Source: Janthinobacterium sp. PAMC25594 (GTDB lineage Bacteria > Pseudomonadota > Gammaproteobacteria > Burkholderiales > Burkholderiaceae_D). Taken from it: a stretch of 64,000 nt of DNA. A program made the position numbers and the translations under genes. This document shows, piece after piece, positions 20,712-35,867 of this stretch (positions are counted from its first letter, which is position 1; every line of letters begins with the position of its first letter). The stretch spans positions 4,774,001-4,838,000 of the forward strand of contig NZ_CP080377.1 of NCBI RefSeq assembly GCF_019443505.1, in the 5' to 3' direction. Below the pieces are notes generated by a model. The model ran no database searches and was not told the DNA's origin. It saw nothing but the letters and a program-made list of their open reading frames with translations.

Positions 20712-20877
20712 AGTCTAATATAAATGGATTGCGTGGCGCGGTCAAACGGGTGCTTTGCAGTGCGTATTCCTGTCGCTACAATATGCCGCACCGGATTTTT
20801 CCATGCCCGCCGCTGGCGCCGCTGTTTGTTTGGAAAACCGCTTCTTTTACCCGTTTTTCTACCGTGTCAGGAATGAA

Positions 20878-22317
20878 ATGCAGCAGACCCCGATTCGATC
20901 CTTCCTCTGCGCGCTGGCGCTGGCCGCCGGCATCGTCCCTGCCGCGCAGGCTGCCGGTGCCGCCCAGCCGGCCACCATGCGCCTCGATTACCAGCACAGC
21001 GGCAATGCGCTGGGCGAGCATTATGCGGTCGAGCGCGTGCTGGTCGAACCCTTGCCATGGCCGGGCAATCTGGCGCGTCCCATCGATGACAGCAACCGCG
21101 GCAACAACCTGCTGGAAGTGGTCGATATCCAGTCGGGCAAGGTGCTGTATTCGCGCGGCTTCTCCACCATTTTCGGTGAATGGGCCAGCACCGACGAAGC
21201 GAAAACCACCACGCGCGCGTTCCAGGAATCCGTGCGTTTCCCGCAGCCCGAGCACCCCGTGCGCGTGCGCATTCTCAAGCGCGACGAACGCGGCCTGTTT
21301 TCCATTGTGTGGAGCACCGATGTCGACCCGGCGGCGCAGGAGGTGATCCGCAAGCAGCCGCCCGCGCCGGTCAAGCCGATCCCGATCCGCATCAGTGGCC
21401 CCTCGTCCGGGAAGGTCGACCTGCTGATCATGGGCGACGGCTACACGGCCGCCGAAATGGGCAAGTTCGAAGCGACGGCGCGGAAATTGGCCGAACACCT
21501 GTTTACGGTCTCGCCGTTCCGCGAGCGGGCCAATGACTTCAACGTGTGGGCCATGGCCGCGCCGACGCAGGAGTCGGGCGTGTCGCGTCCATCGACGGGC
21601 GTGCACCATGCGTCGCCGCTGGGCACGCGCTACGATATTTTCGGCAGCGAGCGTTATGTGCTGACGACGGACAACCGCGCCCTGCGCGACCTGGCGCAGT
21701 ATGCGCCGTATGAATTCATCGAAATCCTCGTCAACAACGACACCTACGGCGGTGGCGGCATCTTCGGCCAGTTCAGCACGGCGGCAGCCAACAACGACTG
21801 GGCCAATTACCTGTTCGTGCATGAATTCGGCCACCATTTCGCCGGCCTGGCCGATGAGTACTACACTTCGCCCGTGGCCTATCAGTCGAATGGCGAGCGG
21901 CAGGAACCGTGGGAGTCGAACGCCACGGCGCTGCGCGATCCGTCCAAACTGAAATGGCAGAGCCACGTCAAGGCGGGCACGCCGCTGCCGACGCCATGGC
22001 CGAAGGAAGCCTACGACAGCCATGCGCGCGAGTACCAGAAGCAGCGCGCGGCCCTGCGCGCGGCCAACCGCCCGGAAAGCGAGATGAGCGATTTGTTCAA
22101 GGCCGACCTGGCGTACACGCAGCAGCTGTTCTCGAAGGCGCCGCAGCGCCATGCTGTGGGCGCCTTCGAAGGCGCGAACTACGAGTCGTCCGGCTACTAC
22201 CGGCCCGAGATGCAATGCATCATGTTCGACCGCAGCGAGACCTTCTGCTCCGTATGCCAGGATGGCATCAGCACCATCATCGACTTGTATTCGCGTCCCG
22301 CGGCGCCGCGCCAATAA
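20878..22317 (+). CDS. Secreted M64-family (IgA peptidase-like) zinc peptidase
   Basis: A 479-residue protein with a signal peptide (1-24, ending AAQAAG), an N-terminal beta-rich region and an M64 catalytic domain. The zinc motif HEFGHHFAGLADEY starts at about residue 315, with His315, His319 and a downstream Asp as ligands. The family is named for a Clostridium IgA protease, but most bacterial members have unknown substrates. The ATG at 20878 has AGGA upstream; a frame from 20755 would add 41 unlikely residues. The gene is divergent from the TetR gene. No partner gene is evident. Confidence 0.88.
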   Translation: MQQTPIRSFLCALALAAGIVPAAQAAGAAQPATMRLDYQHSGNALGEHYAVERVLVEPLPWPGNLARPIDDSNRGNNLLEVVDIQSGKVLYSRGFSTIFGEWASTDEAKTTTRAFQESVRFPQPEHPVRVRILKRDERGLFSIVWSTDVDPAAQEVIRKQPPAPVKPIPIRISGPSSGKVDLLIMGDGYTAAEMGKFEATARKLAEHLFTVSPFRERANDFNVWAMAAPTQESGVSRPSTGVHHASPLGTRYDIFGSERYVLTTDNRALRDLAQYAPYEFIEILVNNDTYGGGGIFGQFSTAAANNDWANYLFVHEFGHHFAGLADEYYTSPVAYQSNGERQEPWESNATALRDPSKLKWQSHVKAGTPLPTPWPKEAYDSHAREYQKQRAALRAANRPESEMSDLFKADLAYTQQLFSKAPQRHAVGAFEGANYESSGYYRPEMQCIMFDRSETFCSVCQDGISTIIDLYSRPAAPRQ

Positions 22318-22559
22318 TCCTTTCAGCGCAGTGCCGCAAGGCATGGTGGGCCATGTTGCAACGCAATAGCATGGTCCCCAGTTTTATCGTTCCCCGCCTT
22401 GCGCCTCGCGCCACGGCGCCGCGCAGCTTGTGTTTCAGGCAATCTCCCCTTCTTTTGTACGGCCGCTTTTTTATGCGCCAGCCCCGCGATATTATCAAAT
22501 AAGCACCGCGATTCGATTGCTTATCAATTAGTCCATTTAAATAATATTGATGTAGAATT

Positions 22560-22573
22560 TGATGTGTATCAAT
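22560..22573 (+). promoter_or_regulatory. FNR/ANR binding site
   Basis: TTGATGTGTATCAA matches the FNR/ANR consensus TTGAT-N4-ATCAA perfectly. Its centre (22566.5) is 41.5 bp before the start expected from the -10 at 22597-22602, the exact spacing of class II FNR-activated promoters. Confidence 0.8.
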
Positions 22574-22596
22574 GTTGCATTGCCGCAATCGCACTT

Positions 22597-22602
22597 ATAG
22601 TT
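22597..22602 (+). promoter_or_regulatory. -10 element of the FNR-dependent promoter
   Basis: TATAGT, with transcription expected to start near 22608. There is no good -35, as expected for a class II activated promoter where FNR replaces it. Confidence 0.6.
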
Positions 22603-22744
22603 GACCTAGCTCAAAACGATAAGCATGCGGACCGGACTCATCGCGAATCACGTATCTAAATGCTGTAGAGTAATTTTCGCCCCGTACCAGTTCCCTGAGA
22701 ATGCACTGGTGCCGGCCTCGAATTTCAGTGACGGAAGCCGATTC

Positions 22745-22930
22745 ATGAAGATGCAGACCCCCGCGCCTGACGCGTGCAATACCCTCCATCCCCACACACC
22801 GATTGCCTTGCCGTACGCGCGCGCAGGCGGCGTGACCCTGGCCATGAGCGCGGCCGCCATGCGCGCCGGCGCGGTGCGCTGCGTGCGTGCGGCCACGCCG
22901 TGGCCCGCCCTGCGTCCAGTCCAGGCATGA
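22745..22930 (+). CDS. Possible 61-residue leader ORF coupled to fabI
   Basis: ATG at 22745 (MKMQTPAPDACNTLHPH...) runs 61 codons and ends in a TGA that overlaps the FabI ATG in the ATGA form, typical of translational coupling. The product is Ala/Arg-rich with no recognised domain. No strong ribosome site is seen (GGAAGC lies 10 nt upstream). It lies within the transcript expected from the FNR promoter. Its reality is uncertain. Confidence 0.35.
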   Translation: MKMQTPAPDACNTLHPHTPIALPYARAGGVTLAMSAAAMRAGAVRCVRAATPWPALRPVQA

Positions 22931-23712
22931 CGGCCGACTTGCGCCCACACTTGCCTTTGCAGGGCAAGCGGGGCCTGGTGGTGGGCATCGCCAACGCGCA
23001 AAGCATCGCCTGGGGCTGCGCCAGCGCATTGCGCGCGGCCGGCGCCGAACTGGCCGTGACCTGGCTCAATGACAAGGCGCGTCCGCATGTGGAACCGCTG
23101 GCGCAGCAAGTGCAGGCGGCCATCATGGCGCCGCTCGACGTGGCCGTGCCAGGCCAGCTCGAAGCGCTGTTTGCGCAGATCGAGCGGCAGTGGGGGAGGC
23201 TCGATTTCGTCGTCCATTCCATCGCTTACGCGCCCAAACAGGACTTGCATGGCCGCGTCACGGACAGTTCGGCTGACGGCTTCGCGCAGGCGATGGATAT
23301 CTCCTGCCACTCCTTCATGCGCATGGCGAAGCTGGCCGAACCGCTGATGCCGGACGGCGGCAGCCTGATGACCATGAGTTACCTGGGCGCCGAGGAAGTC
23401 ATCGCCGACTATGGCCTGATGGGGCCAGTGAAGGCGGCGCTGGAAGCATCGGTGCGCTACCTGGCGGCGGAACTGGGCCCGCAAGGCATCCGCGTCAATG
23501 CCATCTCGCCGGGGCCCCTGGAAACGCGGGCCGCTTCCGGCATTGCCCATTTCGACCGCCTGATGGCCGACGCCATCGAACGCTCGCCCATGCGCTGCCT
23601 GGCCACCATCGAGGACGTGGGCGCGCTGTGCGCCTTCCTCGCCGGCGACGGCGCGCGCGCCATCACGGGCGGCACCTTGTATGTCGATGGCGGCTACAAC
23701 ATTCTGAATTGA
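22927..23712 (+). CDS. fabI: Enoyl-ACP reductase of the FabI type
   Basis: NADH-dependent reduction of trans-2-enoyl-ACP in fatty-acid elongation. The protein has 261 residues, a normal FabI length. The Rossmann region GLVVGIANAQSIAWGCA, the active-site Tyr-x6-Lys (YGLMGPVK) and SPGPLETRAASGI are as in FabI. A frame from 22774 is open, but the N-terminus aligns from the ATG at 22927. It heads the exporter/PTA/AckA gene run rather than a fab cluster, so it may be a second, condition-specific FabI. If so, the housekeeping copy lies outside the window (not seen). Confidence 0.9.
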   Translation: MTADLRPHLPLQGKRGLVVGIANAQSIAWGCASALRAAGAELAVTWLNDKARPHVEPLAQQVQAAIMAPLDVAVPGQLEALFAQIERQWGRLDFVVHSIAYAPKQDLHGRVTDSSADGFAQAMDISCHSFMRMAKLAEPLMPDGGSLMTMSYLGAEEVIADYGLMGPVKAALEASVRYLAAELGPQGIRVNAISPGPLETRAASGIAHFDRLMADAIERSPMRCLATIEDVGALCAFLAGDGARAITGGTLYVDGGYNILN

Positions 23713-23725
23713 CTGGAAGAAGAAG

Positions 23726-25177
23726 ATGATCATGCCTGTTCCCGCTTTATCTGCGTGCGCCAGGATGGCCGCGCTGGCCACTGCACTGGCCACCACGCTG
23801 GCCCTGGCCGGCTGCGCCTCGATGGCGCCGCCGTATGCGCCACCGCCGCTGCCCGTGGCGGCGCAGTATCCGGAAACCGATCCCGCCGGCGCGCACGCGG
23901 CGGACATCGCCTGGCAAGCCTACTTTGCCGATGCGCGCCTGCAGGCGCTGATTGCGCAGGCGCTTGCCAGCAACCGCGATATTCGCATCGCCGCCCTGCG
24001 CGTGGAAGAGGCGCGCGCCGCGTATGGCATCCAGCGCGCGGAACAATTCCCCACCATTGCGCTGGGCGCCTCCGGCAGCCGTGCGCGCGTGCCCGGTGAC
24101 CTGAGTGTGACGGGCCGCCCCATGACGAGCGCGCAGTACCAGACGGGCTTGAACGTGAGCGCCTGGGAGCTCGATTTCTGGGGCCGCGTGCGCAGCCTGA
24201 AGGACAGCGCGCTGCAAACCCTGCTGGCCAGTGACGAGGCGCGCCGCGCCGTCAGCGTGGCCCTGGTGGCGCAGGTGGCCAATGGCTACCTGGGCCTGCG
24301 CGAACTCGATGAACGGGTGGCACTGGCGCGCGCCACGGTCGACAGCCGCGCCGAGTCGCTGCGCATCTTTACGCGTCGCTTCGAGGTCGGGTCGATTTCC
24401 AAACTGGACCTGACGCAGGTGGAAACCCTGCTCAGCCAGGCCCTCTCGCTGTCGGCGCAGCTGGAGCAGGCGCGCGCCGTGCAGGCGCACGCGCTGGCCC
24501 AGCTGGTGGGCGGCCCGGTCGACCTGACTCCGGACACGCGCCGCTTCGACGACGCCAGCGTGCTGCAGCCGCTGCATGCGGGCCTGCCCTCGGCCTTGCT
24601 CACGCAGCGTCCCGACCTGATGGCGGCCGAGCATCAACTGCGCGCCGCGCAAGCCAATATCGGCGCCGCGCGCGCCGCCTTCTTTCCCACCATTTCGCTG
24701 ACGGCCGCTTACGGCACGGCCAGCGCGGAATTGAGCGGCCTGTTCGACTCGGGCAGCGGCGCCTGGAGTTTCGCGCCGCGCCTGGTGCTGCCGATCTTTG
24801 ACGCGGGCCGCATCCGCGCCAACATGGACCTGGCCGAGGTACGCCGCGACGTGGCCGTGGCCAATTATGAAAAGAGCGTGCAGGGCGCGTTTCGCGAAGT
24901 GGCCGACGCGTTGTCGAACCGGCGCTGGCTGGCGCTGCAGGTCGACATCGGCAAGACCACGCTGGCCGCGCAGAGCGAACGCGCGCGCCTGGCCAAGCTG
25001 CGCTATGACAATGGCGCCGCGCCCTACCTGGAAGTGCTCGATGCGCAGCGCGACCTGCTGACGGTCGAGCAGCAACTGGTGCAGACGCGCCGCGCGCTGC
25101 TCTCCAGCCAGGTCAGCCTGTATGCGGCCCTGGGCGGCGGCGCACCCGCCGCCTCTGCCGCCGCTTCCACCCACTAA
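23726..25177 (+). CDS. Outer-membrane efflux lipoprotein (NodT/OprM family)
   Basis: A 483-residue TolC-like channel protein. A lipoprotein signal peptide ends in the lipobox LAGC (about residues 27-30), and two OEP repeats (about 65-260 and 285-470) form the alpha-barrel/beta-barrel. Motifs include QAYFADARLQALIAQALASNRDIRIA and APRLVLPIFDAGRIRANMDLAEVR. The ATG at 23726 has GGAAGAAG upstream; a second ATG at 23732 is possible. It lies 13 bp after fabI and 18 bp before the HlyD adaptor, so it is the outer-membrane part of the exporter encoded downstream. Confidence 0.93.
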   Translation: MIMPVPALSACARMAALATALATTLALAGCASMAPPYAPPPLPVAAQYPETDPAGAHAADIAWQAYFADARLQALIAQALASNRDIRIAALRVEEARAAYGIQRAEQFPTIALGASGSRARVPGDLSVTGRPMTSAQYQTGLNVSAWELDFWGRVRSLKDSALQTLLASDEARRAVSVALVAQVANGYLGLRELDERVALARATVDSRAESLRIFTRRFEVGSISKLDLTQVETLLSQALSLSAQLEQARAVQAHALAQLVGGPVDLTPDTRRFDDASVLQPLHAGLPSALLTQRPDLMAAEHQLRAAQANIGAARAAFFPTISLTAAYGTASAELSGLFDSGSGAWSFAPRLVLPIFDAGRIRANMDLAEVRRDVAVANYEKSVQGAFREVADALSNRRWLALQVDIGKTTLAAQSERARLAKLRYDNGAAPYLEVLDAQRDLLTVEQQLVQTRRALLSSQVSLYAALGGGAPAASAAASTH

Positions 25178-25195
25178 TTTGATCGCCCCGATACC

Positions 25196-26269
25196 ATGAC
25201 TCCACAACTGAAGAAAAAACTCATCCCCGCGGCGCTCGTCGTGGCCGTTCTCGTGCTGGGCTATGTGGCCTGGCAAAAAATGCGTCCCACCGGCCCCGGT
25301 GAGGGTTTTGTCAGCGGCAATGGCCGCATCGAAGCGACGGAAATCGACGTCGCCACCAAGCTGGCCGGCCGCGTCAAGGAGATCCTCGTGCGCGAGGGCG
25401 ACTTCGTCAAGGCGGGGCAGCCGCTGGCCACCATGCAGGTGGACTCGCTGACGGCCCAGCGCGACGAGGCGCGCGCGCGCCAGCAGCAGGCGTCCGACGC
25501 GGTGGTCGGCGCGCAGGCGCAGGTGGCCGTGCGCGAGAGCGACAAGGCGGCCGCGCTGGCCCTGGTGGCGCAGCGTGAAAGCGAACTCGATGCGGCCCGC
25601 CGCCGCCTGGCCCGCTCGGAAACCTTGTCGAAAGAGGGCGCTTCTTCGGTGCAGGAACTCGACGACGACCGCGCCCGCGTGCGCAGCGTGGCCGCCGCCC
25701 TGAATGCGGCCAAGGCGCAGGTGACTGCGGCGCAGGCGGCCATCGACGCGGCCAAGGCGCAAGTGGTGGGTTCGCGTTCGGCCGTGACGGCCGCCGAGGC
25801 GACCACCGCGCGCATCGACGCCGACCTGGCCGATGGCCAGCTGGCGGCGCCGCGCGACGGCCGCGTGCAATACCTGGTGGCGCAGCAGGGCGAAGTGCTG
25901 GCTGGTGGCGGCAAGGTGCTCAACCTGGTCGACCTGTCGGACGTCTACATGACCTTTTTCCTGCCCGAGACGGCGGCCGGCAAGGTGGCGATGGGCGGCG
26001 AAGTGCGCATCATCCTCGATGCGGCGCCCAATTACGTGATTCCGGCGACGATCTCGTTTGTCGCCGCCAGCGCGCAGTTCACGCCGAAGACGGTGGAAAC
26101 GGCCAGCGAGCGCCAGAAGCTGATGTTCCGCGTGAAAGCGCAGATCAGCCGCGAGCTGCTGCAAAAGCATCTGGCTTTGGTAAAAGTGGGCTTGCCCGGC
26201 GTAGCCTGGGTGCGTCTCGATGCAAAGCAGGCATGGCCGGCTGAACTGACGGCCAAGGTCCCGCAGTGA
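25196..26269 (+). CDS. HlyD/YhiI-type membrane-fusion adaptor
   Basis: Periplasmic adaptor of 357 residues that bridges the ABC pump and the outer-membrane channel. A single N-terminal anchor (about 9-26, [18 protein letters not shown]) is followed by the lipoyl halves ([33 protein letters not shown] ... [24 protein letters not shown]). Between them is a long Ala-rich coiled coil (about 85-205). The order HlyD, double ABC protein, permease matches E. coli yhiI-rbbA-yhhJ. Its stop overlaps the GTG start of the ABC gene by 4 bp. The exported substrate is unknown. Confidence 0.93.
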
Positions 26270-29016
26270 CCATGGACGTGACCCCATTTGTCGTCAGTAT
26301 CAAGGGCGTCAGCCAGCATTACGGCAAGACGGTGGCGCTCGACGCCATCGACCTCGATGTGCCGGCCGGCTGCATGGTGGGCTTGATCGGGCCCGATGGC
26401 GTGGGCAAATCGAGCCTGCTGTCGCTGGTGGCCGGCGCGCGCGCCGTGCAGCAGGGCAGCGTGATGGCGCTGGGCGGCGACATGCGCGATGCGCGCCATC
26501 GCGACGATGTCTGTCCGCGCATCGCCTACATGCCGCAAGGCCTGGGCAAGAATCTGTATCCGACTTTGTCTGTCGAGGAAAACCTGCAGTTTTTCGCGCG
26601 CCTGTTCGGCCACGATGCCGCCGAACGCCGGCGCCGCATCGACCAGCTGACCCGCAGCACGGGCTTGCACCCGTTCCTGGCGCGCCCGGCGGGCAAGCTG
26701 TCGGGCGGCATGAAGCAGAAACTGGGCCTGTGCTGCGCGCTGATCCACGATCCCGACCTGCTCATTCTCGATGAGCCGACCACCGGCGTCGATCCGCTGG
26801 CGCGCGCCCAGTTCTGGGACCTGATCGCCGGCATTCGCGTGCAGCGCCCGCAAATGAGCGTGATGGTCGCCACCGCCTACATGGATGAGGCACAGCGCTT
26901 CGACTGGCTGGTCGCCATGGATGATGGCAAGGTGCTCGATACGGGCACGCCGGCCGAACTGCTGGCGCGCACGCAAAGCGACAACCTGGAGGCGGCCTTC
27001 ATCAAGCTGCTGCCGGAAGCCAAGCGCGCAGGCCACCAGCCCGTGGTCATCACGCCGCTGGACGCGGCCAGCGCGCAGGACGTCGCCATCGAGGCGAAAG
27101 ATCTGACCATGCGCTTCGGCGATTTCACGGCCGTCGACCATGTGAATTTCCGCATCGGTCGCGGCGAGATCTTCGGCTTTCTCGGCTCGAATGGCTGCGG
27201 CAAGTCGACCACCATGAAGATGCTCACGGGCCTGCTGCCGGCAACGGAAGGCAAGGCCTGGCTGTTCGGCAAGGAAGTCGATTCCAGCGATATCGACACG
27301 CGCCGCAGGGTCGGTTACATGTCGCAGGCATTTTCCCTGTACAGCGAACTGACGGTGCGCCAGAACCTGGTGCTGCATGCGCGCCTGTTCCACGTGCCGG
27401 AAGCGGAAATCGCCGCGCGCATCGACGAAATGGCGCAGCGCTTCGACTTGCGCGAAGTGATGGACGACCTGCCCGACAGCCTGCCGTTGGGCATACGCCA
27501 GCGTTTGTCGCTGGCCGTGGCCATGGTGCACAAGCCGGAAATGCTGATCCTCGACGAGCCCACGTCCGGCGTCGACCCGATCGCGCGCGACAATTTCTGG
27601 CGCTTGATGATCGAGCTGGCGCGGCGCGACCGCGTCACCATCTTTATCTCCACCCACTTCATGAACGAGGCCGAGCGCTGCGACCGCATCTCGCTGATGC
27701 ACGCGGGTAAAGTGCTGGTCAGCGATGCACCGGCCGAACTGGTACGCAAGAAGGGGGCACCGTCGCTGGAAGCGGCCTTCATCGCCTACCTGGAAGAGGC
27801 GGGCGGCGGCACGGCGCCGGCGGAGCAGGAAAGCGAGGTGCCCGCGCAGAAGGCTGAAGTGGCCGCACCGCAGCAGGAACACCGGCGCAGCCGCTTCAGT
27901 CTTGGGCGCATGCTCAGCTACATGTGGCGCGAAACGCTGGAATTGCGGCGCGACCCCGTGCGCCTGACCCTGGCGCTGGGCGGCTCCGTGCTGCTGCTGT
28001 TCGTCATCGGCTTCGGCATCAGCCTGGATGTGGAAGACCTCAGTTATGCGGTGCTCGACCACGACCAGACCACCCTGAGCCAGAATTACACGAACAACCT
28101 GGCCGGTTCGCGCTACTTCGTCGAGCGCCCGCCGCTGCGCGACTATGCCGATATCGACAAGCGCATGCGCAGCGGCGAACTGTCGCTGGCCATCGAGATT
28201 CCGCCCGGCTTTGCGCGCGACGTGCAGCGCGGCGCGCCGGCCCAGGTGGGCGCCTGGATCGACGGCGCCATGCCGATGCGCGCCGAAACCGTGCAGGGCT
28301 ACGTGCAGGGCATGCATCAGCTGTGGCTGGCCGACCAGGCCCTGCACCGCTATGGCATCAAGATGAACAATCCCGTCGCCATCCAGACGCGCTACCGCTA
28401 CAACCCGGACGTGAAAAGCCTGCCGGCCATGGTGCCGGCCGTGATTCCCTTGCTGCTGCTGATGCTGCCGGCCATGCTGGCGGCGCTGTCCGTGGTGCGT
28501 GAAAAGGAACTCGGGTCCATCATCAACCTGTACGTGACGCCCGTCACGCGCCTGGAATTCTTGCTCGGCAAGCAGGTGCCGTACGTCGTGCTGGCCATGT
28601 TCAACTTCGCCCTCATGGCGCTGCTGGCGGTCACCGCCTTCGGCGTGCCGGTCAAGGGCAGCTTGCTGACCTTGATCGGCGCCACCTTCATCTTCAATAT
28701 CTGCGCCACCGGCATCGGGCTGTTCGCCTCGACGTTTACGCGCAGCCAGATCGCGGCCCTGTTCGTGACCATGATCGGCACCATGATCCCGGCCATCCAG
28801 TTTTCCGGCCTGCTCAATCCCGTCTCGTCGATGGAAGGCGTGGGCAAGGCGATCGGCCTGATGTACCCGGCCACGCACATGCTCAATATCAGCAGGGGCG
28901 TGTTCAACAAGGCGCTGGGCTTTGGCGACTTGCACGCCTCGTTCTGGCCCCTGCTCGTGGCGATCCCCGTGATCCTCGGCGTGACGGTGGCGCTGCTGAA
29001 GAAACAGGAGTCGTAA
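26266..29016 (+). CDS. RbbA-like ABC protein: two ATPase domains fused to an ABC-2 permease
   Basis: A 916-residue inner-membrane pump subunit. ATPase 1 has Walker A GPDGVGKS (42-49), signature LSGGMKQ (145-151) and Walker B LLILDE. ATPase 2 has GSNGCGKST (307-315) and LILDE, but its signature is degenerate ([10 protein letters not shown], 406-415). An ABC-2 membrane domain follows from about 560, with a large periplasmic loop and about five more segments after residue 715. This is the RbbA/YhiH architecture. I kept the GTG at 26266, which has AAGG 8 nt upstream and overlaps the HlyD stop; ATG at 26272 is the alternative. Confidence 0.93.
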
Positions 29017-29020
29017 GCGT

Positions 29021-30145
29021 ATGCGCCATCTTGAAAATATCTACCGCCTGGGCGTGAAGGAAATCTGGAGCCTGATCCGCGATCCGATGATGCTGATCCT
29101 GATCCTCTACACCTTCACTTTGGCCATCTACGTGGCCGCCACGGCCAAGCCGGAAACCCTGCACATGGCCTCGATCGCCATCGTCGACGAGGATGGCTCG
29201 CCGCTGTCCGGGCGCATCGCCTCGGCCTTCTTCCCGCCGCAGTTCACGCCGCCGGCCATGATCAACCAGAGCCAGGTCGATGCGGGCCTGGACGCGGGCC
29301 GGTACACCTTCGTGCTGACGATACCGCCCAAGCTGCAGGCGGACGTGCTGGGCGGGCGCCAGGCGGAGCTGCAACTGAACGTGGACGCCACGCGCATGAG
29401 CCAGGCCTTCAGCGGCAGCGGCTACATCCAGCAGATCGTCGCCGGTGAAATATCCGAATTCGCCAAACGCTATCGCGGCGCGACGGTCTCGCCGGTGGAG
29501 CTGGTGATGCGCGCGCGCTTCAACCCATCGCTGAGCCAGGCGTGGTTTGGCTCGCTGATGGAGCTCATCAACCAGGTGACGATGCTGTCGATCATTTTGA
29601 CGGGGGCGGCGCTGATCCGCGAGCGCGAACACGGCACCATCGAGCATTTGCTGGTGATGCCCGTGACGCCGGCCGAAATCATGCTGGGCAAGGTCTGGTC
29701 GATGGGCCTGGTGGTGCTGCTGGCCGCCGCCCTGTCGCTGAACCTGGTGGTGCGCGGCATGCTGCACGTGCCGATCGAAGGCTCGATCGCGCTGTTCCTG
29801 TGCGGCGCGGCCCTGCACCTGTTTGCCACCACCTCGATGGGCATTTTTCTCGCCACCGTGGCGCGCAGCATGCCGCAGTTCGGCATGCTGCTGATCCTCG
29901 TGCTGCTGCCGCTGCAGATGCTCTCGGGCGGCAGCACGCCGCGCGAAAGCATGCCCGAACTGGTGCAGAACATCATGCTGATCGCACCGACCACGCATTT
30001 CGTCGAACTGAGCCAGGCGATCCTGTACCGGGGCGCCGGCATCGACGTGGTATGGAAACCGTTCCTGGCCCTGCTGGCCATCGGCACGGCCCTGTTTACC
30101 TTCGCGCTGGCGCGCTTTCGCAAGACCATCAGCCAGATGGCGTAG
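29021..30145 (+). CDS. ABC-2 permease (YhhJ-like)
   Basis: A 374-residue membrane subunit paired with the RbbA-like protein. The ABC-2 layout is clear: an N-terminal segment (about 25-45), a periplasmic domain (45-175), then five or six C-terminal segments including AALIREREHGTIEHLLVMPVTPAEIMLGK, the coupling motif. The start MRHLENIYRLGVKE has AGGAG upstream. It ends 8 bp before a strong terminator hairpin, so exporter genes may be made in excess over the downstream metabolic genes. Confidence 0.93.
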   Translation: MRHLENIYRLGVKEIWSLIRDPMMLILILYTFTLAIYVAATAKPETLHMASIAIVDEDGSPLSGRIASAFFPPQFTPPAMINQSQVDAGLDAGRYTFVLTIPPKLQADVLGGRQAELQLNVDATRMSQAFSGSGYIQQIVAGEISEFAKRYRGATVSPVELVMRARFNPSLSQAWFGSLMELINQVTMLSIILTGAALIREREHGTIEHLLVMPVTPAEIMLGKVWSMGLVVLLAAALSLNLVVRGMLHVPIEGSIALFLCGAALHLFATTSMGIFLATVARSMPQFGMLLILVLLPLQMLSGGSTPRESMPELVQNIMLIAPTTHFVELSQAILYRGAGIDVVWKPFLALLAIGTALFTFALARFRKTISQMA

Positions 30146-30152
30146 CCCCCCG

Positions 30153-30177
30153 CGCCGGAATGGTCCGGCGTTTTTTT
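30153..30177 (+). terminator. Rho-independent terminator inside the gene run
   Basis: CGCCGG (30153-30158) pairs with CCGGCG (30165-30170) around a 6-nt loop, followed directly by seven T. It separates the exporter genes from the DUF3141-PTA-AckA genes. Partial read-through, or a second unseen promoter, would be needed for the latter. Confidence 0.8.
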
Positions 30178-30194
30178 GCATGAAAAGGATAGCC

Positions 30195-32471
30195 ATGAAG
30201 ATCGAAACTGCACCATTTTTCTCCACCGGCGGCTTGCCGTCGCTGGGCGTGCTGGGCGACTATGCGCGCGACTCGTGGCAGCGCATCGTGCTGTACGCGG
30301 ACGTGATGCGCCGGCGCGGCAACCAGTACCAGGAGCATCTGGCCGAGGAAGTGCCGAACGTGCTGGACTTCCCCGCCGAACTGGTGATGTCCGGCCTGGA
30401 GCTGGCGCGCCCCGTCAACTACGGCCTGGCGCGCATATTGACGCCCGATACACCGCAGCCAGATCCAGGCAAGCGGCCATTCGTCGTCGTCGACCCGCGC
30501 GCTGGCCACGGTCCCGGCATCGGCGGCTTCAAGGCCGAGAGCGAAATCGGCGTGGCCCTGCGCGCCGGCCATCCGTGCTACTTCATCGGCTTCCTGCCCG
30601 ATCCCGTGCCGGGACAGACGGTGGAAGACGTGATGCACGCCGAGGCGGCCTTCCTGGAAAAAGTCATCGCCCTGCATCCGCTCAGCGAGGGCAAGCCCGT
30701 CGTCATCGGCAATTGCCAGGCGGGCTGGCAAATCCTCATGACGGCGGCCATGCGCCCGGAGCTGTTCGGCCCCATCATCGTGGCCGGCGCGCCCGTGTCG
30801 TACTGGGCCGGCTGGCATGGCCGCAACCCGATGCGCTATGCGGGTGGCCTGATGGGTGGCAGCTGGGCCACGGCGCTGGCGGGCGACCTGGGCAAGGGCC
30901 GTTTCGACGGCGCCAGCCTGGTGCAGAATTTCGAGAAGCTGAACCCGGCCAACACCCTGTGGAGCAAGCAGTACAACCTGTACGCGAACATCGATACGGA
31001 AGCGCCCCGTTATCTGGAATTTGAAAAATACTGGGGCGGCCACGTGTTCCTCAACGACGTCGAGATGCAGTACATCGTCGACAATCTGTTCATCGGCAAC
31101 CGCCTGGCCACGGCGGAGTTGATCACTTCCGATGGCGTGCGTCTGGACTTGCGCAATATCCGTTCGCCCATCGTCGTATTCTGCTCGAACGGCGACAACA
31201 TCACGCCGCCGCCGCAGGCGCTGGGCTGGATCACGGACCTGTACCGCGACGACAACGATGTGCTGCTGCACGACCAGACCATCGTGTATGCCGTGCATGA
31301 CAGCATTGGCCACCTGGGCATTTTCGTCTCGGCCAAGGTGGGGCACAAGGAACACCAGAAATTCGCCAGCAATATCGACCTGATCAACCTGCTGCCGGCC
31401 GGCATCTACGAAGCGCGGATCGTCGACAAGACGCCCGATACGCCGAACGCGGACCTGGCCAGCGGCGACTACGTGCTGCAGGTCGAGCATCGCGGCATCG
31501 AGGATGTGCGCGCCATCGTGCAGCCCAGCGTGGAAAATGACCGCAAATTCGCCGCTGTCGCGCGCGTGTCCGAAGTGAACCTGGCTTTGTACCGCACGTT
31601 TGCGCAGCCGTGGGTGCGCGCCATGGTCACGCCGCAGTCGGCGCGCTTGCTGCAGCTCACGCATCCGCTGCGCGTCTCGTACGAGCGCTGGACGGACCAC
31701 AATCCGCTGGCCAAGCTGGTGGCCAAGGAGGCGGAAAAAGTGCGCGCTCAGCGCCAGCCGGTGGCGCCGGACAACCCGCTGCTGGCCATGCAGGAAGCCA
31801 TCTCCGGCGCCATCACGGCCGGCTTGAACAGCTGGCGCGACTGGCGCGATACGGTGCAGGAAACCACTTTCGACATGATTTATGGCTCACCCCTGGTGCA
31901 GGCGCTGACGGGACAAGCCCTCGGCGACACCACGCCGCCGCGCCCGCATCCCGGTATCTCGCCCGAGCATTGCGAATACGTGCGTTGCGAAACGCGCAAG
32001 ATGGACGAGGACATGCAGCATGGGGGCCTGGTGGAGGCGGCCGTGCGCGCGCTGTTCTACATCTACCGCTTCCGCATGATCGCCGACGAGCGCCGCGTCA
32101 ACCTGGCCCTCAAATTGGTCAAGCCGCAGTACACGCAGGGCTTCAGCATGGAAGAATTCCGCGGCATCGTGCGCCAGCAGGCGCGTTTGATGCTGCATGA
32201 TTTCGATGCCGCCATCGCCGCCTTGCCGACTTTGCTGTCGCGTGCGGAGCCGGATGCCATCGGCGCGCTGGGCGAATGGCTGCAGCAAGTGCTGCAAGTG
32301 CCCGAAGCGCCGACGCCGGACGAGGAAGCGAGCCTGCAGCAAATGCTGGCGGTATTCGAGCGTGCGATCAAGGCGCACGCGAAGGCGCTGCCACCGGCCG
32401 CGCATGCATCTCAAACTGCGTCCCAGCCTGCTGTCCAGGCCAAACCTGCCAAAAACACTACCTCTGCCTAG
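30195..32471 (+). CDS. DUF3141 protein, PHA-synthase-like alpha/beta hydrolase
   Basis: A 758-residue cytoplasmic protein. The first 380 residues form an alpha/beta-hydrolase fold related to polyhydroxyalkanoate synthases. The nucleophile elbow is GNCQAGW (172-178, Cys174) and the other triad members are likely Asp334 (SNGDNITPP) and His373 (SIGHLGIF), a Cys-Asp-His set as in PhaC. The C-terminal 380 residues are helical and end in an Ala/Pro/Lys tail. I chose the ATG at 30195 because AAGGA lies 7 nt upstream; the ATG at 30180 sits on the terminator T run. DUF3141 genes are often next to pta and ackA, as here. The reaction is not known to me; acyl transfer from CoA or ACP is inference. Confidence 0.85.
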   Translation: MKIETAPFFSTGGLPSLGVLGDYARDSWQRIVLYADVMRRRGNQYQEHLAEEVPNVLDFPAELVMSGLELARPVNYGLARILTPDTPQPDPGKRPFVVVDPRAGHGPGIGGFKAESEIGVALRAGHPCYFIGFLPDPVPGQTVEDVMHAEAAFLEKVIALHPLSEGKPVVIGNCQAGWQILMTAAMRPELFGPIIVAGAPVSYWAGWHGRNPMRYAGGLMGGSWATALAGDLGKGRFDGASLVQNFEKLNPANTLWSKQYNLYANIDTEAPRYLEFEKYWGGHVFLNDVEMQYIVDNLFIGNRLATAELITSDGVRLDLRNIRSPIVVFCSNGDNITPPPQALGWITDLYRDDNDVLLHDQTIVYAVHDSIGHLGIFVSAKVGHKEHQKFASNIDLINLLPAGIYEARIVDKTPDTPNADLASGDYVLQVEHRGIEDVRAIVQPSVENDRKFAAVARVSEVNLALYRTFAQPWVRAMVTPQSARLLQLTHPLRVSYERWTDHNPLAKLVAKEAEKVRAQRQPVAPDNPLLAMQEAISGAITAGLNSWRDWRDTVQETTFDMIYGSPLVQALTGQALGDTTPPRPHPGISPEHCEYVRCETRKMDEDMQHGGLVEAAVRALFYIYRFRMIADERRVNLALKLVKPQYTQGFSMEEFRGIVRQQARLMLHDFDAAIAALPTLLSRAEPDAIGALGEWLQQVLQVPEAPTPDEEASLQQMLAVFERAIKAHAKALPPAAHASQTASQPAVQAKPAKNTTSA

Positions 32472-32480
32472 AAGACCACG

Positions 32481-33896
32481 ATGACTACTACCCAAGACGA
32501 TGATTTGCATATCGTGCGTAACCGCACCTTCGACCAGATCGCCATCGGCGACACCGCCAGCATCACGCGCACCCTGAGCATGGACGATATCGCCCTGTTC
32601 GCGGTGATGTCGGGCGATGACAACCCGCAGCACCTGGATGCCGAATTTGCCGCCTCCAGCCGCTACCAGGGCGTCATCGCGCACGGCATGTGGGGCGCGG
32701 CCCTCATTTCGGCCGTGCTGGGCACGCGCCTGCCCGGCGCCGGCACCGTCTACACGGGCCAGACCCTGCGTTTCCTGCAGCCCGTGCGCGTGGGCGATAC
32801 GCTGGCCATCAGCGTCACCGTCACCGCGCGCGAGCCGCACAACCGCCACGTGACCCTGGCCTGCCGCTGCGTCAACCAGCATGGCGCCGTGGTGCTCGAC
32901 GGCGAAGCGCAGGTGATCGCGCCCGCCGAACAGATCGAACGCAAGCGCGCCACTCTGCCCGAAGTGCGCCTGCATAACGGCGACGGCACGCGGCGCCTGC
33001 TGGAACACGCGCGCACGCTGGGTCCGATCCGGGTCGCCGTGATCCACCCGTGCGATGAACTGAGCCTGGCGGGCGCGCTCGATGCCCATGCGGCCGGCCT
33101 GATTACGCCCGTTCTGGTGGCGCCGCGCGCGCGCCTGGAAGCGGTGGCGGCCGAAGCGGGCCTGAGCCTGGAAGGCATCGCCATCGAGGACGTCGAACAT
33201 AGCCATGCGGCCGCCGCGCGCGGCGCCGAACTGGCGGGCAAGGGCGAAGTGGAGGCGCTGATGAAGGGCAGCCTGCACACGGATGAACTGATGTCGGCCG
33301 TGCTGGCCGCCAGCGCCGGCCTGCGCACCAAGCGCCGCATCAGCCACTGCTTCCTGATGCAGACGCCCGCCTATCCGCGTCCTTTCATCATCACGGATGC
33401 GGCCATCAATATCGCGCCGAACCTGGCGATGAAGGCCGACATCGTGCGCAACGCCATCGACCTGGCGCACGTGATTGGCGTGGCCTGCCCGCGCGTGGCC
33501 ATCCTGGCCGCCGTGGAAACCGTGAACGCGGACATGCCGGCCACGCTGGACGCGGCCGCCCTGTGCAAGATGGCCGACCGCGGCCAGATCACGGGGGCGA
33601 TCCTCGATGGCCCGCTGGCCTTCGACAACGCCGTCTCGATCGCCGCCGCCACCGTCAAGGGCATCGTCTCCGAGGTGGCGGGCCGCGCCGATATTTTGCT
33701 GGTACCCGACCTGGAGAGCGGCAACATGCTGGCCAAGCAGCTTGAATACATGGGTGATGCGGACAGCGCCGGCATCGTGCTGGGCGCGAAAATCCCCGTC
33801 ATCCTCACCAGCCGCGCCGATTCGCGCGCCAGCCGCATCGCCTCGTGCGCCATCGCCGTGATGCTGGCCAATCATTACCGGAGCACGCCGCCATGA
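32481..33896 (+). CDS. Bifunctional MaoC-type enoyl-CoA hydratase / phosphate acetyl(butyryl)transferase
   Basis: A fusion of 471 residues. The N-terminal part (about 10-150) is a MaoC hot-dog domain with the R-specific hydratase signature D-x-N-P-x-H (Asp46, His51; DDNPQHLD) and the following IAHGMW. The C-terminal part (about 165-465) is a PTA_PTB domain, which swaps CoA for phosphate on short acyl groups. The fused enzyme could hydrate an enoyl-CoA and make acyl-phosphate for the acetate kinase encoded next, whose ATG overlaps this stop (33893-33896). Acyl specificity cannot be read from sequence. Confidence 0.92.
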   Translation: MTTTQDDDLHIVRNRTFDQIAIGDTASITRTLSMDDIALFAVMSGDDNPQHLDAEFAASSRYQGVIAHGMWGAALISAVLGTRLPGAGTVYTGQTLRFLQPVRVGDTLAISVTVTAREPHNRHVTLACRCVNQHGAVVLDGEAQVIAPAEQIERKRATLPEVRLHNGDGTRRLLEHARTLGPIRVAVIHPCDELSLAGALDAHAAGLITPVLVAPRARLEAVAAEAGLSLEGIAIEDVEHSHAAAARGAELAGKGEVEALMKGSLHTDELMSAVLAASAGLRTKRRISHCFLMQTPAYPRPFIITDAAINIAPNLAMKADIVRNAIDLAHVIGVACPRVAILAAVETVNADMPATLDAAALCKMADRGQITGAILDGPLAFDNAVSIAAATVKGIVSEVAGRADILLVPDLESGNMLAKQLEYMGDADSAGIVLGAKIPVILTSRADSRASRIASCAIAVMLANHYRSTPP

Positions 33897-35113
33897 ACGC
33901 ACCCGTCCAACATGCCGCCGATGGCGCCCTGATCCTGGTGCTCAATTGCGGCTCGTCGAGCATCAAGTTCGCCCTGTTCGAGCAAGCGGACGGCATGCTG
34001 CCGCAGCAGGCGCAATGGGGTGGCAAGGTCGAAGGTATCGGCCGCGAAAACGCCACGTACCGCGCCGGCGGCCTGCCGGCGGTCGCCTTGCAGCTCGATG
34101 CGCAGCAGCCGCATCACGCGGCCCTCGAATACATCCGCGCGCAAGTGGTGGCGCAGCTGGACGGGCGTCCGCTGCGCGCCGTGGCGCATCGCGTGGTGCA
34201 TGGCGGCAGCAAGTATTTTGCTCCCGTGCGCATCGATGCCAAGGTGCTGGCGGACCTGAAAAGTTTTGTGCCGCTCGCGCCGCTGCACCAGCCGTTCGCG
34301 CTGGAGGCGATCGAGGTGCTGCTCGAATCACGGCCCGACATCGCCCAGGTGGCGTGCTTCGACACGGCCTTCCACCACACGGTGCCGCAGGTCGAGCAGA
34401 TGCTGGCCCTGCCTTACGATGCGTGGGAGCGGGGCTTGCGCCGCTACGGCTTCCACGGTCTGTCGTACGAATACCAGTCGCTGGTGCTGGAGCAGCGTTT
34501 TGGCGCTGTCGCGCGCGGCAAGGTCATCGTGGCCCACCTGGGTAGCGGCGCCAGTCTGTGCGCCATGGAGCACCTGCAAAGCGTGGCCACCACCATGGGC
34601 TTTTCCGCGCTCGATGGTCTGATGATGGGCACGCGCTGCGGTTCGCTCGATCCGGGCGCCGTGATCTACCTGATGGAAATCGAAAAACTGTCGCTGGAAA
34701 AAGTGGCGCATGTGCTGTACCACGAGTCGGGCTTGCTGGGCGTGTCGGGCGTGTCGGCCGATCCGCCGGTGCTGCTGGCGCAGCAGGACCGGCAGGATGC
34801 CACGGGTGAGCGCATCCGCGCCGCGCTGGCCCTGTATATCCGCCGCATCGTGCGTGAAATCGGCGCCCTGACGGCCGTGCTCGGTGGGCTGGACATGCTG
34901 GTGTTTACGGCCGGTATCGGCGAGCATAGCGCCGAACTGCGCCAGCGCATCTGCGCCGAGCTCGGTTTCATCGGCCCCGTGCTCGATGCGCAGGCCAATG
35001 CGCGCAACGCCAGCCGTATTTCCACCGATGCCAGCCGCATCGTGGTGGGCGTGGAACCGGCAAATGAGGAGTGGGTGGCGGCGCGCCATGCGGCGCTGGC
35101 CGTGGGCGCATGA
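33893..35113 (+). CDS. ackA: Acetate (short-chain acyl) kinase
   Basis: A 406-residue ASKHA kinase that transfers phosphate from acyl-phosphate to ADP, giving ATP. Family hallmarks are intact: VLNCGSSSIKFALFE near residue 16, the VAHRVVHGG region, DTAFHH, HLGSGASLCA and FTAGIGEHS. The ATG at 33893 overlaps the PTA stop as ATGA, with GGAG 10 nt upstream; the longer frame from 33845 lies inside the PTA gene. With the PTA domain it completes substrate-level phosphorylation, which fits the anaerobic FNR control. It could prefer propionate or butyrate. It is the last gene of the run. Confidence 0.95.
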   Translation: MNAPVQHAADGALILVLNCGSSSIKFALFEQADGMLPQQAQWGGKVEGIGRENATYRAGGLPAVALQLDAQQPHHAALEYIRAQVVAQLDGRPLRAVAHRVVHGGSKYFAPVRIDAKVLADLKSFVPLAPLHQPFALEAIEVLLESRPDIAQVACFDTAFHHTVPQVEQMLALPYDAWERGLRRYGFHGLSYEYQSLVLEQRFGAVARGKVIVAHLGSGASLCAMEHLQSVATTMGFSALDGLMMGTRCGSLDPGAVIYLMEIEKLSLEKVAHVLYHESGLLGVSGVSADPPVLLAQQDRQDATGERIRAALALYIRRIVREIGALTAVLGGLDMLVFTAGIGEHSAELRQRICAELGFIGPVLDAQANARNASRISTDASRIVVGVEPANEEWVAARHAALAVGA

Positions 35114-35299: not shown

Positions 35300-35329
35300 T
35301 AAAATTAAACCATATTGAAAGGTCTCATC

Positions 35330-35806
35330 ATGAACAAATTACTCGCCGCCCTGATCGCCACCCTGTTTGCTACCGCCGCCTTCGCTCAAACCGCGCCGGC
35401 TACCGAAGCTGTCGTGAAAGCCCAGGCTTCCGCGCAAAAAGATGTCAACAAGGCTGCCGCTTCGGAAGCCAAAGTCGATGCCAAGGCTGACGCCAACGTC
35501 GCCAAGGCTGAAATGAAGGCTGACGAAAAGAAAGCCGACGCCCATCACAAGGCCAATAAAACCAAGGCCAAGGCTCACGACAAAGTCGTCAGCGCCGATG
35601 CGGAAGACAAGCTGAAAGCGGAAGCCAAGGCCGATAAAACCGATGCCAAGGCCGATGCGAAAGCCACCAAGACGGCCGTGAAAGCGAACGCCAAGGTCGC
35701 CAAGGAAAAAGTGGAAGCGAACGCCGATAAAGCCCTCGCCGCCACCAAGACGGCAGAAACCAAGGCCAAAGCCGACGCTGAAGTCAAGGCCGCCGCCGCC
35801 AAGTAA
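35330..35806 (+). CDS. Exported Ala/Lys/Asp-rich low-complexity protein
   Basis: A 158-residue protein. A clean signal peptide (MNKLLAALIATLFATAAFAQ) is followed by about 135 residues built almost only from Ala, Lys, Asp, Glu, Val and Thr, in KADAKA-like units. After the signal peptide there is no Cys, Trp, Tyr, Phe or Gly. Such composition gives a long charged helix or a disordered hydrophilin/LEA-like chain. The ATG at 35330 has AAAGG upstream; MKGLI in the longer frame is unlikely. It has its own promoter and a classic terminator. The periplasmic role is unknown; stress protection or polyanion binding is a guess. Confidence 0.85.
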   Translation: MNKLLAALIATLFATAAFAQTAPATEAVVKAQASAQKDVNKAAASEAKVDAKADANVAKAEMKADEKKADAHHKANKTKAKAHDKVVSADAEDKLKAEAKADKTDAKADAKATKTAVKANAKVAKEKVEANADKALAATKTAETKAKADAEVKAAAAK

Positions 35807-35840
35807 TTCCCCGTTTGCGGGCCACGGCCTGCAAGCCCCA

Positions 35841-35867
35841 AAGACAGCTTCGGCTGTCTTTTTTTTT
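35841..35867 (+). terminator. Rho-independent terminator after the Ala/Lys-rich gene
   Basis: AAGACAGC, loop TTCG, GCTGTCTT, then a T run to 35867: a textbook intrinsic terminator, 34 bp after the stop. Confidence 0.95.

Follow-up and report, generated by a model that had tools for sequence, protein, structure and literature searches.

Locus organization

What would a bacterium do with an enoyl reductase, a tripartite exporter, a protein of the domain-of-unknown-function family DUF3141, a hydratase-acyltransferase fusion and an acyl kinase placed behind one predicted oxygen-responsive promoter? Such a set lies on the 6.55-Mb chromosome of Janthinobacterium sp. PAMC25594, within the 64,000-nt stretch analyzed here (NZ_CP080377.1, positions 4,774,001 to 4,838,000; hereafter the window, whose numbering is used throughout). 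Our answer is tentative, with a probability of roughly 0.42: the set would be an FNR-switched fermentation of C4 (R)-hydroxyacyl units to butyrate and ATP, with an accompanying exporter. The eight-gene run headed by an FNR palindrome is itself real and confirmed. On the + strand, a leader open reading frame (ORF) is followed by fabI, the gene of an outer-membrane efflux protein (OMF), hlyD, rbbA, yhhJ, the DUF3141 gene, maoC-pta and ackA. Profile searches place eight of these nine ORFs in known families, and fabI to ackA span 22927-35113 with intergenic gaps of -4 to +34 nt. An earlier interpretation drawn from the letters alone (hereafter the sequence-only reading), which overall is partly supported, had described nine co-directional ORFs with short gaps behind a perfect FNR box, and this description is borne out.

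A predicted FNR-type promoter heads the run

A perfect FNR/Anr-type box, TTGATGTGTATCAA (22559..22572, + strand), precedes the run and is conserved in Janthinobacterium and other loci. It is the sole 0-mismatch FNR site in the window. The genome carries 64 perfect FNR palindromes in 6.55 Mb, against one match of a control pattern, and with 64 such boxes we rejected the window's single box as statistically striking alone; what exceeds chance is its position and conservation, not mere occurrence. A -10-like hexamer, TATAGT (22596..22601, +), lies 23 nt after the box, with the transcription start site expected near 22607, and the box-to-hexamer distance is identical in 18 of 18 compared Janthinobacterium upstream regions, even where the leader differs. 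In class II FNR promoters, the box lies ~22-23 nt upstream of the -10 hexamer. The TTGAT-N4-ATCAA box, the -10 spacing and the presence of an FNR-type regulator gene in the genome are consistent with this class. The regulator, encoded at G000:C1:3998321, displays an N-terminal Cys cluster (CSTCSMHQLC) and a recognition helix (ESVSR), both recognized by eye. A second, imperfect palindrome, TTGACCTAGCTCAA (22601..22614, +), spans the expected start site.

Comparison across related loci extends this observation. Of 81 operon heads, three were too short (L070, L079 and L107), leaving 78 testable. A match to TTGAYNNNNRTCAA is present within 420 bp at 47/78 heads compared with 9/1095 other upstream windows of the same loci, a difference that overstates the number of independent events, as the heads come from related loci; the control windows derive from a crude gene caller that sometimes selects opposite-strand frames, so not all of them mark true gene starts. 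By group, the match occurs at 20/21 Janthinobacterium heads (window included) and 27/57 elsewhere; by first gene, it precedes fabI in 4/4, OMF in 6/13, hlyD in 2/4 and DUF3141 in 15/36 heads. A stricter scan allowing at most one mismatch retains 41/78 heads, and the box recurs at heads in Delftia, Achromobacter, Microvirga and Halomonas. Together with the conserved -10 spacing and the Cys-cluster regulator, these counts lend comparative support to the FNR-type control put forward in the sequence-only reading.

Enzyme families suggest a C4 (R)-hydroxyacyl route

The first family member, a FabI-type enoyl reductase (22927..23712, +; NF005717, 447.1 bits, cut-off 337), carries the Y-x6-K motif as YGLMGPVK at 162, and a second FabI-like gene elsewhere in the genome is 44% identical to it. 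Toward the end of the run, a PhaJ-like MaoC hydratase is fused to a phosphate butyryl/acetyltransferase (PTA) (32481..33896, +), the fusion passing NF006045 with 747.7 bits (cut-off 282). Its MaoC half (PF01575, 76.4 bits, cut-off 27) bears a DDNPQH motif at residue 46 and finds its best solved-structure matches in the (R)-specific enoyl-CoA hydratases 5cpg and 1iq6. The PTA half scores 291.1 bits with the phosphate butyryltransferase (PTB) model TIGR02706 vs 65.4 bits with canonical Pta (TIGR00651), and its best solved-structure match is the phosphate butyryltransferase 7vg9; other PTA-family genes in the genome are C1:1779032 and a long frame at C1:4672180. The last gene encodes AckA, an acetate/propionate-family kinase (33893..35113, +; TIGR00016, 333.3 bits, cut-off 293.4). 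The mechanical ORF list starts it at 33845; 33893 is likelier, since there the start codon and the stop of MaoC-PTA overlap as ATGA. No second AckA copy is found in the genome, the operon AckA being the sole match of its query.

The PTB-like PTA half and the PhaJ-like MaoC half therefore suggest a C4 (R)-hydroxyacyl route, which would narrow the "surplus acyl groups" of the sequence-only reading. Every reaction that follows, its chain length and direction, and the union of all in a single pathway are what we infer from the computed gene families, catalytic motifs, conserved box and synteny. Under oxygen limitation, the FNR-activated module would ferment C4 (R)-3-hydroxyacyl units supplied by polyhydroxybutyrate (PHB) or by the pathway that leads to it from acetyl-CoA. 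MaoC would dehydrate (R)-3-hydroxybutyryl-CoA to crotonyl-CoA, the dedicated FabI would reduce this to butyryl-CoA and spend NADH, the fused PTB-like domain would yield butyryl-phosphate, and AckA would convert the latter to butyrate and ATP. FabI may use crotonyl-CoA. The DUF3141 protein would serve as a PhaC-like cysteine acyltransferase moving 3-hydroxyacyl groups into or out of an oligomer or polymer, while the co-regulated HlyD-RbbA-YhhJ-OMF exporter would probably carry an acyl-derived or toxic product. Since such a route would employ every enzyme and dispose of NADH, it would suit FNR control; the earlier proposal of ATP recovery through PTA and AckA is likewise consistent with the families.

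Elsewhere, genes of polyhydroxyalkanoate (PHA) metabolism join the cluster, namely a phasin, an acetoacetyl-CoA reductase and a PhaC-family gene at locus L066 and a thiolase at the Pseudoxanthomonas locus L107. A partial precedent comes from Bacillus cereus, in which, according to the portion of the paper available, PTB and butyrate kinase peak after PHB breakdown, under oxygen limitation, although the same source assigns them to a separate route from acetyl-CoA (PMC7236355).

DUF3141 has PhaC-like features

The DUF3141 protein (30180..32471, +) matches its Pfam family with 957.9 bits (cut-off 29.7) and has the features of a PhaC-type alpha/beta hydrolase fold, with Cys179-Asp339-His378 as the putative triad. 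C179, D339, H378 and G182 are identical in 115/115 DUF3141 sequences, and residue 177 is Gly in 90 and Ala in 25 of them, giving a GxCxxG-like box around the Cys. In an hhalign comparison, D339 and H378 lie opposite D469 and H497 of the L049 PhaC, with a probability of only 35% and the Cys region uncovered. The fold and the invariant triad thus favor the PhaC-like assignment made in the sequence-only reading, and the protein probably acts on the 3-hydroxyacyl pool. Two narrower identities were rejected: a bona fide class I PhaC (TIGR01838, 17.8 bits vs cut-off 622.65) and the sole PHB depolymerase (a canonical PhaZ is encoded in the genome). A class I PhaC and a second PhaC-like gene are also encoded.

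At five other loci (L053, L065, L072, L076 and L055), DUF3141 lies near a heavy-metal-type P-type ATPase (cluster c49), the L053 copy of which shows CPC and DKTGT motifs by eye. A small Met-rich ORF (c52) is found near DUF3141 in the first four of these loci and not in L055.

The exporter and an internal hairpin

Between fabI and DUF3141 lie four exporter genes on the + strand: a NodT-family OMF (23726..25177; TIGR01845, 396.4 bits, cut-off 210.05), an HlyD-family periplasmic adaptor (25196..26269; over its Pfam cut-off), RbbA, in which two ABC ATPase domains are fused to an ABC-2 permease (26266..29016; NF033858, 1606.5 bits, cut-off 1050), and a further ABC-2 permease that forms the second half of the exporter (29021..30145; over its Pfam cut-off), presumably YhhJ, a name given from its position. 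The two Walker A motifs of RbbA and the adjacent HlyD and ABC-2 permease genes support its prediction as an RbbA-type exporter. A terminator-like hairpin with a T run (30152..30171, +) is located between yhhJ and DUF3141, so a single uninterrupted transcript is not a given. Among the 18 exporter-bearing named Janthinobacterium loci, its arms are exact in 14/18 and a T run of at least 5 is present in 6/18.

One distant locus, L136 (499-11988), carries a perfect FNR box at 499 followed by hlyD-rbbA-yhhJ, an OMF gene, ackA and a phosphoketolase gene. It constitutes a second case of an RbbA exporter and an acyl-phosphate-to-ATP enzyme under an FNR box, 1/16 of the sampled RbbA loci; no DUF3141 was found in its genome.

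Gene order is conserved in the genus and modular outside it

The named loci comprise the best 80 of 400 relatives, ranked by similarity to the window's DUF3141, which biases the following fractions. Of 20 Janthinobacterium loci, 18 possess FabI, the exporter, DUF3141, MaoC-PTA and AckA; in the remaining two, which lack the exporter alone, fabI immediately precedes DUF3141, which gives the exporter the look of a cassette. Among the 60 loci outside Janthinobacterium, RbbA, PTA and AckA co-occur in 15, four of which have all five markers; PTA, AckA and FabI occur without RbbA in 18; RbbA occurs without PTA or FabI in seven; and 12 lack any partner, some on short contigs ending near DUF3141, so that part of this class may reflect truncation. 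The conserved gene order on which the sequence-only reading was staked therefore holds in the genus, and only partially beyond.

In samples drawn by taxonomy the set thins out. DUF3141 is over its cut-off in 37/40 genomes of the genus (own included) and is found in 36 of 155 genomes of the family sample; in the class sample of 140 genomes, 16 have RbbA over its cut-off and two have DUF3141 (own genome in both). The 15 other RbbA genomes of the class sample contain no DUF3141, and none lies near their 16 RbbA loci. At 30 DUF3141 loci retrieved from beyond the genus (29 in the family sample, one in the class sample), PTA and AckA occur in 3, FabI in 4 and RbbA in 0. A universally conserved nine-gene operon is rejected, with 0/30 DUF3141 loci beside RbbA and 0/16 RbbA loci beside DUF3141. 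Outside the genus the set is modular, DUF3141-pta-ackA-fabI recurring without the exporter.

A FastTree phylogeny of DUF3141 (94 of 115 rows, 21 near-identical or short rows having been dropped, and with several long branches) confines the RbbA and MaoC markers to one clade of 45 rows (local support, 99%); PTA-AckA(-FabI) is present in branches beyond this clade as well. On that distribution, the metabolic core seems to be the older part, to which one lineage appears to have added the exporter and the MaoC fusion later.

Weighing the explanations

Several observations count against a dedicated C4 fermentation. The PTA half remains under the TIGR02706 cut-off (291.1 vs 410.5 bits), the NCBIfam name of the fusion is enoyl-CoA hydratase/phosphate acetyltransferase, AckA belongs to the acetate/propionate clade and not to butyrate kinases, and FabI is annotated for enoyl-ACP. 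The operon in the window contains neither PhaA nor PhaB, and a canonical intracellular PhaZ is already available. The internal hairpin may split the operon, and its second half may be expressed at a different level. Across genomes, 25/30 DUF3141 loci of the family and class sample have no partner genes, ten loci sharing a common island carry maoC-pta and ackA without fabI in the stretch examined, and pta occurs without maoC in Achromobacter, Sinorhizobium and some Burkholderia loci. No palindrome is present at 31/78 heads or across the fetched plasmid loci of Sinorhizobium medicae, Burkholderia aenigmatica and Cupriavidus, which also argues against universal FNR control.

The same enzymes could run toward storage: PTA and AckA are reversible, and if they activated acetate or short acids, with MaoC supplying (R)-3-hydroxyacyl-CoA and the PhaC-like DUF3141 polymerizing it, carbon would be stored under low oxygen. 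The PhaC-family gene, PhaB and phasin at L066 fit such assimilation, which the available portions of two papers also propose, for the Burkholderia sensu lato phaC-pta-ack-fabI cluster (PMC8231600) and, as AckA/Pta feeding polyhydroxyvalerate, for Cobetia (PMC8686332). It leaves unexplained, however, both a dedicated enoyl reductase and an ATP-costing step under an FNR switch, and DUF3141 falls under the PHA synthase I cut-off by the margin given above. An enoyl reductase, moreover, favors the reduction direction, and we regard assimilation as unlikely. Alternatively, one FNR promoter may merely co-regulate an ATP-yielding unit that forms acetate, a spare FabI, an efflux pump and a PhaC-like hydrolase, which together would serve in a general response to low oxygen or envelope stress. 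The modularity in other genomes agrees with this, as do L136, where the partners of an RbbA exporter behind a perfect FNR box are AckA and phosphoketolase instead, and the Burkholderia lxa locus, which, in the part of the source available, assembles stress proteins, phbB and a phosphate acetyl/butyryl transferase (PMC6127331). The enzymes nevertheless follow one another as steps of a known reaction sequence, MaoC is fused to PTA, and in distant taxa FabI is again found with pta-ackA, so that co-regulation without a single pathway seems improbable to us.

A narrower alternative centers on DUF3141 and the exporter, with DUF3141 making a short (R)-3-hydroxyacyl ester, the RbbA exporter secreting it, and FabI, MaoC, PTA and AckA merely tuning the precursor pool. 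The cysteine acyltransferase-like triad of DUF3141 is compatible with this role, and in 7/60 loci outside Janthinobacterium (Halomonas, Dyella, Pandoraea and Burkholderia sp. lig30) exporter and DUF3141 co-occur without pta/fabI in the stretch examined. The 15 other RbbA genomes of the class sample lack DUF3141, however, none of the 30 sampled DUF3141 loci is beside RbbA, the hairpin sits between the two, and the literature search results, full texts aside, name no substrate for an RbbA exporter, such a cargo included; we hold this pairing to be quite doubtful. That both would be true at once, R-stereochemical fermentation of the cell's own PHB to butyrate and RbbA-mediated secretion of a DUF3141 3-hydroxyacyl product, is highly unlikely. 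If this combination were true, it would provide DUF3141 with a function and RbbA exporters with a natural cargo. The FNR-switched C4 fermentation, if true, would explain how supposedly respiring bacteria survive oxygen loss by fermenting stored plastic and would assign testable functions to DUF3141 and the RbbA exporter.

Comparison with known systems

In E. coli, the HlyD-RbbA-YhhJ exporter corresponds to yhiI-rbbA-yhhJ. The window exporter has the same three genes and differs in that a NodT-type OMF is encoded alongside, within an FNR-headed metabolic run. Clostridial butyrate fermentation, with the genes thl-hbd-crt-bcd/etf-ptb-buk, resembles the proposed route in principle, in that hydroxybutyryl-CoA becomes butyrate while NADH is oxidized and ATP is formed; the window differs in its R-specific MaoC, FabI for Bcd/Etf, a MaoC-PTA fusion and AckA for Buk, and its operon is without thiolase or 3-hydroxybutyryl-CoA dehydrogenase.

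Closer relatives of the metabolic core are in print. As far as the available text goes, Burkholderia sensu lato "group D1/D2" clusters have the order phaC-pta(phaJ fusion)-ackA-fabI (PMC8231600) and a Cobetia/Halomonas cluster is phaC1-fabI-bi-pta-ackA (PMC8686332); they resemble the window in grouping a PhaC-type gene, a PhaJ-PTA fusion, ackA and fabI, and differ in that phaC occupies the place of DUF3141 and that neither an exporter nor an FNR promoter is mentioned in those portions. The S. meliloti orf-pta-ackA-fabI operon is reported to be PhoB-controlled (Summers 1999, as cited in the accessible part of PMC8231600). S. medicae pSymA carries DUF3141-pta-ackA-fabI in that order, which we infer to be this reported Sinorhizobium operon; it departs from the window by a pta without maoC, no exporter and the reported phosphate control, and the S. 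medicae stretch has no FNR/FixK-type palindrome. The Burkholderia cenocepacia J2315 lxa locus is, by the available excerpt, induced at low oxygen and includes phbB and a phosphate acetyl/butyryl transferase, but comprises ~50 genes with six universal stress proteins, and neither an exporter nor DUF3141 is mentioned in that excerpt (PMC6127331). Among 22 window proteins scanned with Pfam, none matched a universal stress protein.

To the extent that these partial sources tell, the phaC-type/pta/ackA/fabI core and the low-oxygen control of a phb/pta-containing Burkholderia locus are thus already published (PMC8231600, PMC8686332, PMC6127331). The sequence-only reading knew of no described function for the whole set; this stands insofar as our literature search found no paper joining the exporter, DUF3141 and a C4 acyl pathway, and not for the core, which is printed as a PHA-associated cluster.

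A near-identical island in other hosts

Ten loci (L066-L071, L074, L075, L078 and L106) have in common a 14-22 kb cluster with 89.5-97.9% DNA identity. Their record titles name Lysobacter, Stutzerimonas, Achromobacter, Pseudomonas putida, Thalassospira, Malikia, Thauera, Zoogloea and two metagenome-assembled genomes with phylum or class names only; the Lysobacter record is likewise metagenome-assembled. From these names we take the hosts to be alpha-, beta- and gammaproteobacteria. Near-identity over 14-22 kb in three classes therefore points to recent transfer among them, and the trait appears to move between species. Besides PHA genes, the island includes exporter and stress genes. The extra genes of L066 comprise the phasin (PF09361, 31.5 bits), the acetoacetyl-CoA reductase (TIGR01829, over cut-off), a second short-chain dehydrogenase/reductase, a GltS-type symporter, a universal stress protein and the PhaC-family gene (488.5 bits, under the 622.65 cut-off). 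The thiolase at L107 is an acetyl-CoA C-acetyltransferase, and this locus thereby unites thiolase and reductase with MaoC-PTA, FabI and AckA.

On a Burkholderia aenigmatica plasmid (L177:1-17364), HlyD, permease and TolC genes are preceded by phbB and an acetate kinase gene and followed by DUF3141, pta, another acetate kinase gene and fabI, RbbA and DUF3141 being recognized there from searches and not from annotation.

Features flanking the run

Between the FNR promoter and fabI, the leader ORF (22745..22930, +; 61 amino acids) has no Pfam match and shares an ATGA overlap with the fabI start. It is present in many, not all, Janthinobacterium loci, its frame being kept through some indels. A divergent 522-amino-acid ORF on the minus strand (20776-22344), without a Pfam match, adjoins the FNR promoter on the other side. 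Scanning the region for promoters yielded no sigma-70 pair on the + strand and three sites on the minus strand (shuffles, 1.9); terminator-like sites across the region are not above chance (9 found vs 10.3 expected from shuffles). Downstream of ackA, a small Ala-rich (Ala/Lys-rich) ORF with a signal-like start (35315-35806) is followed on its 3' side by a terminator-like hairpin (35840..35861, +), and a related ORF is found in 21 loci.

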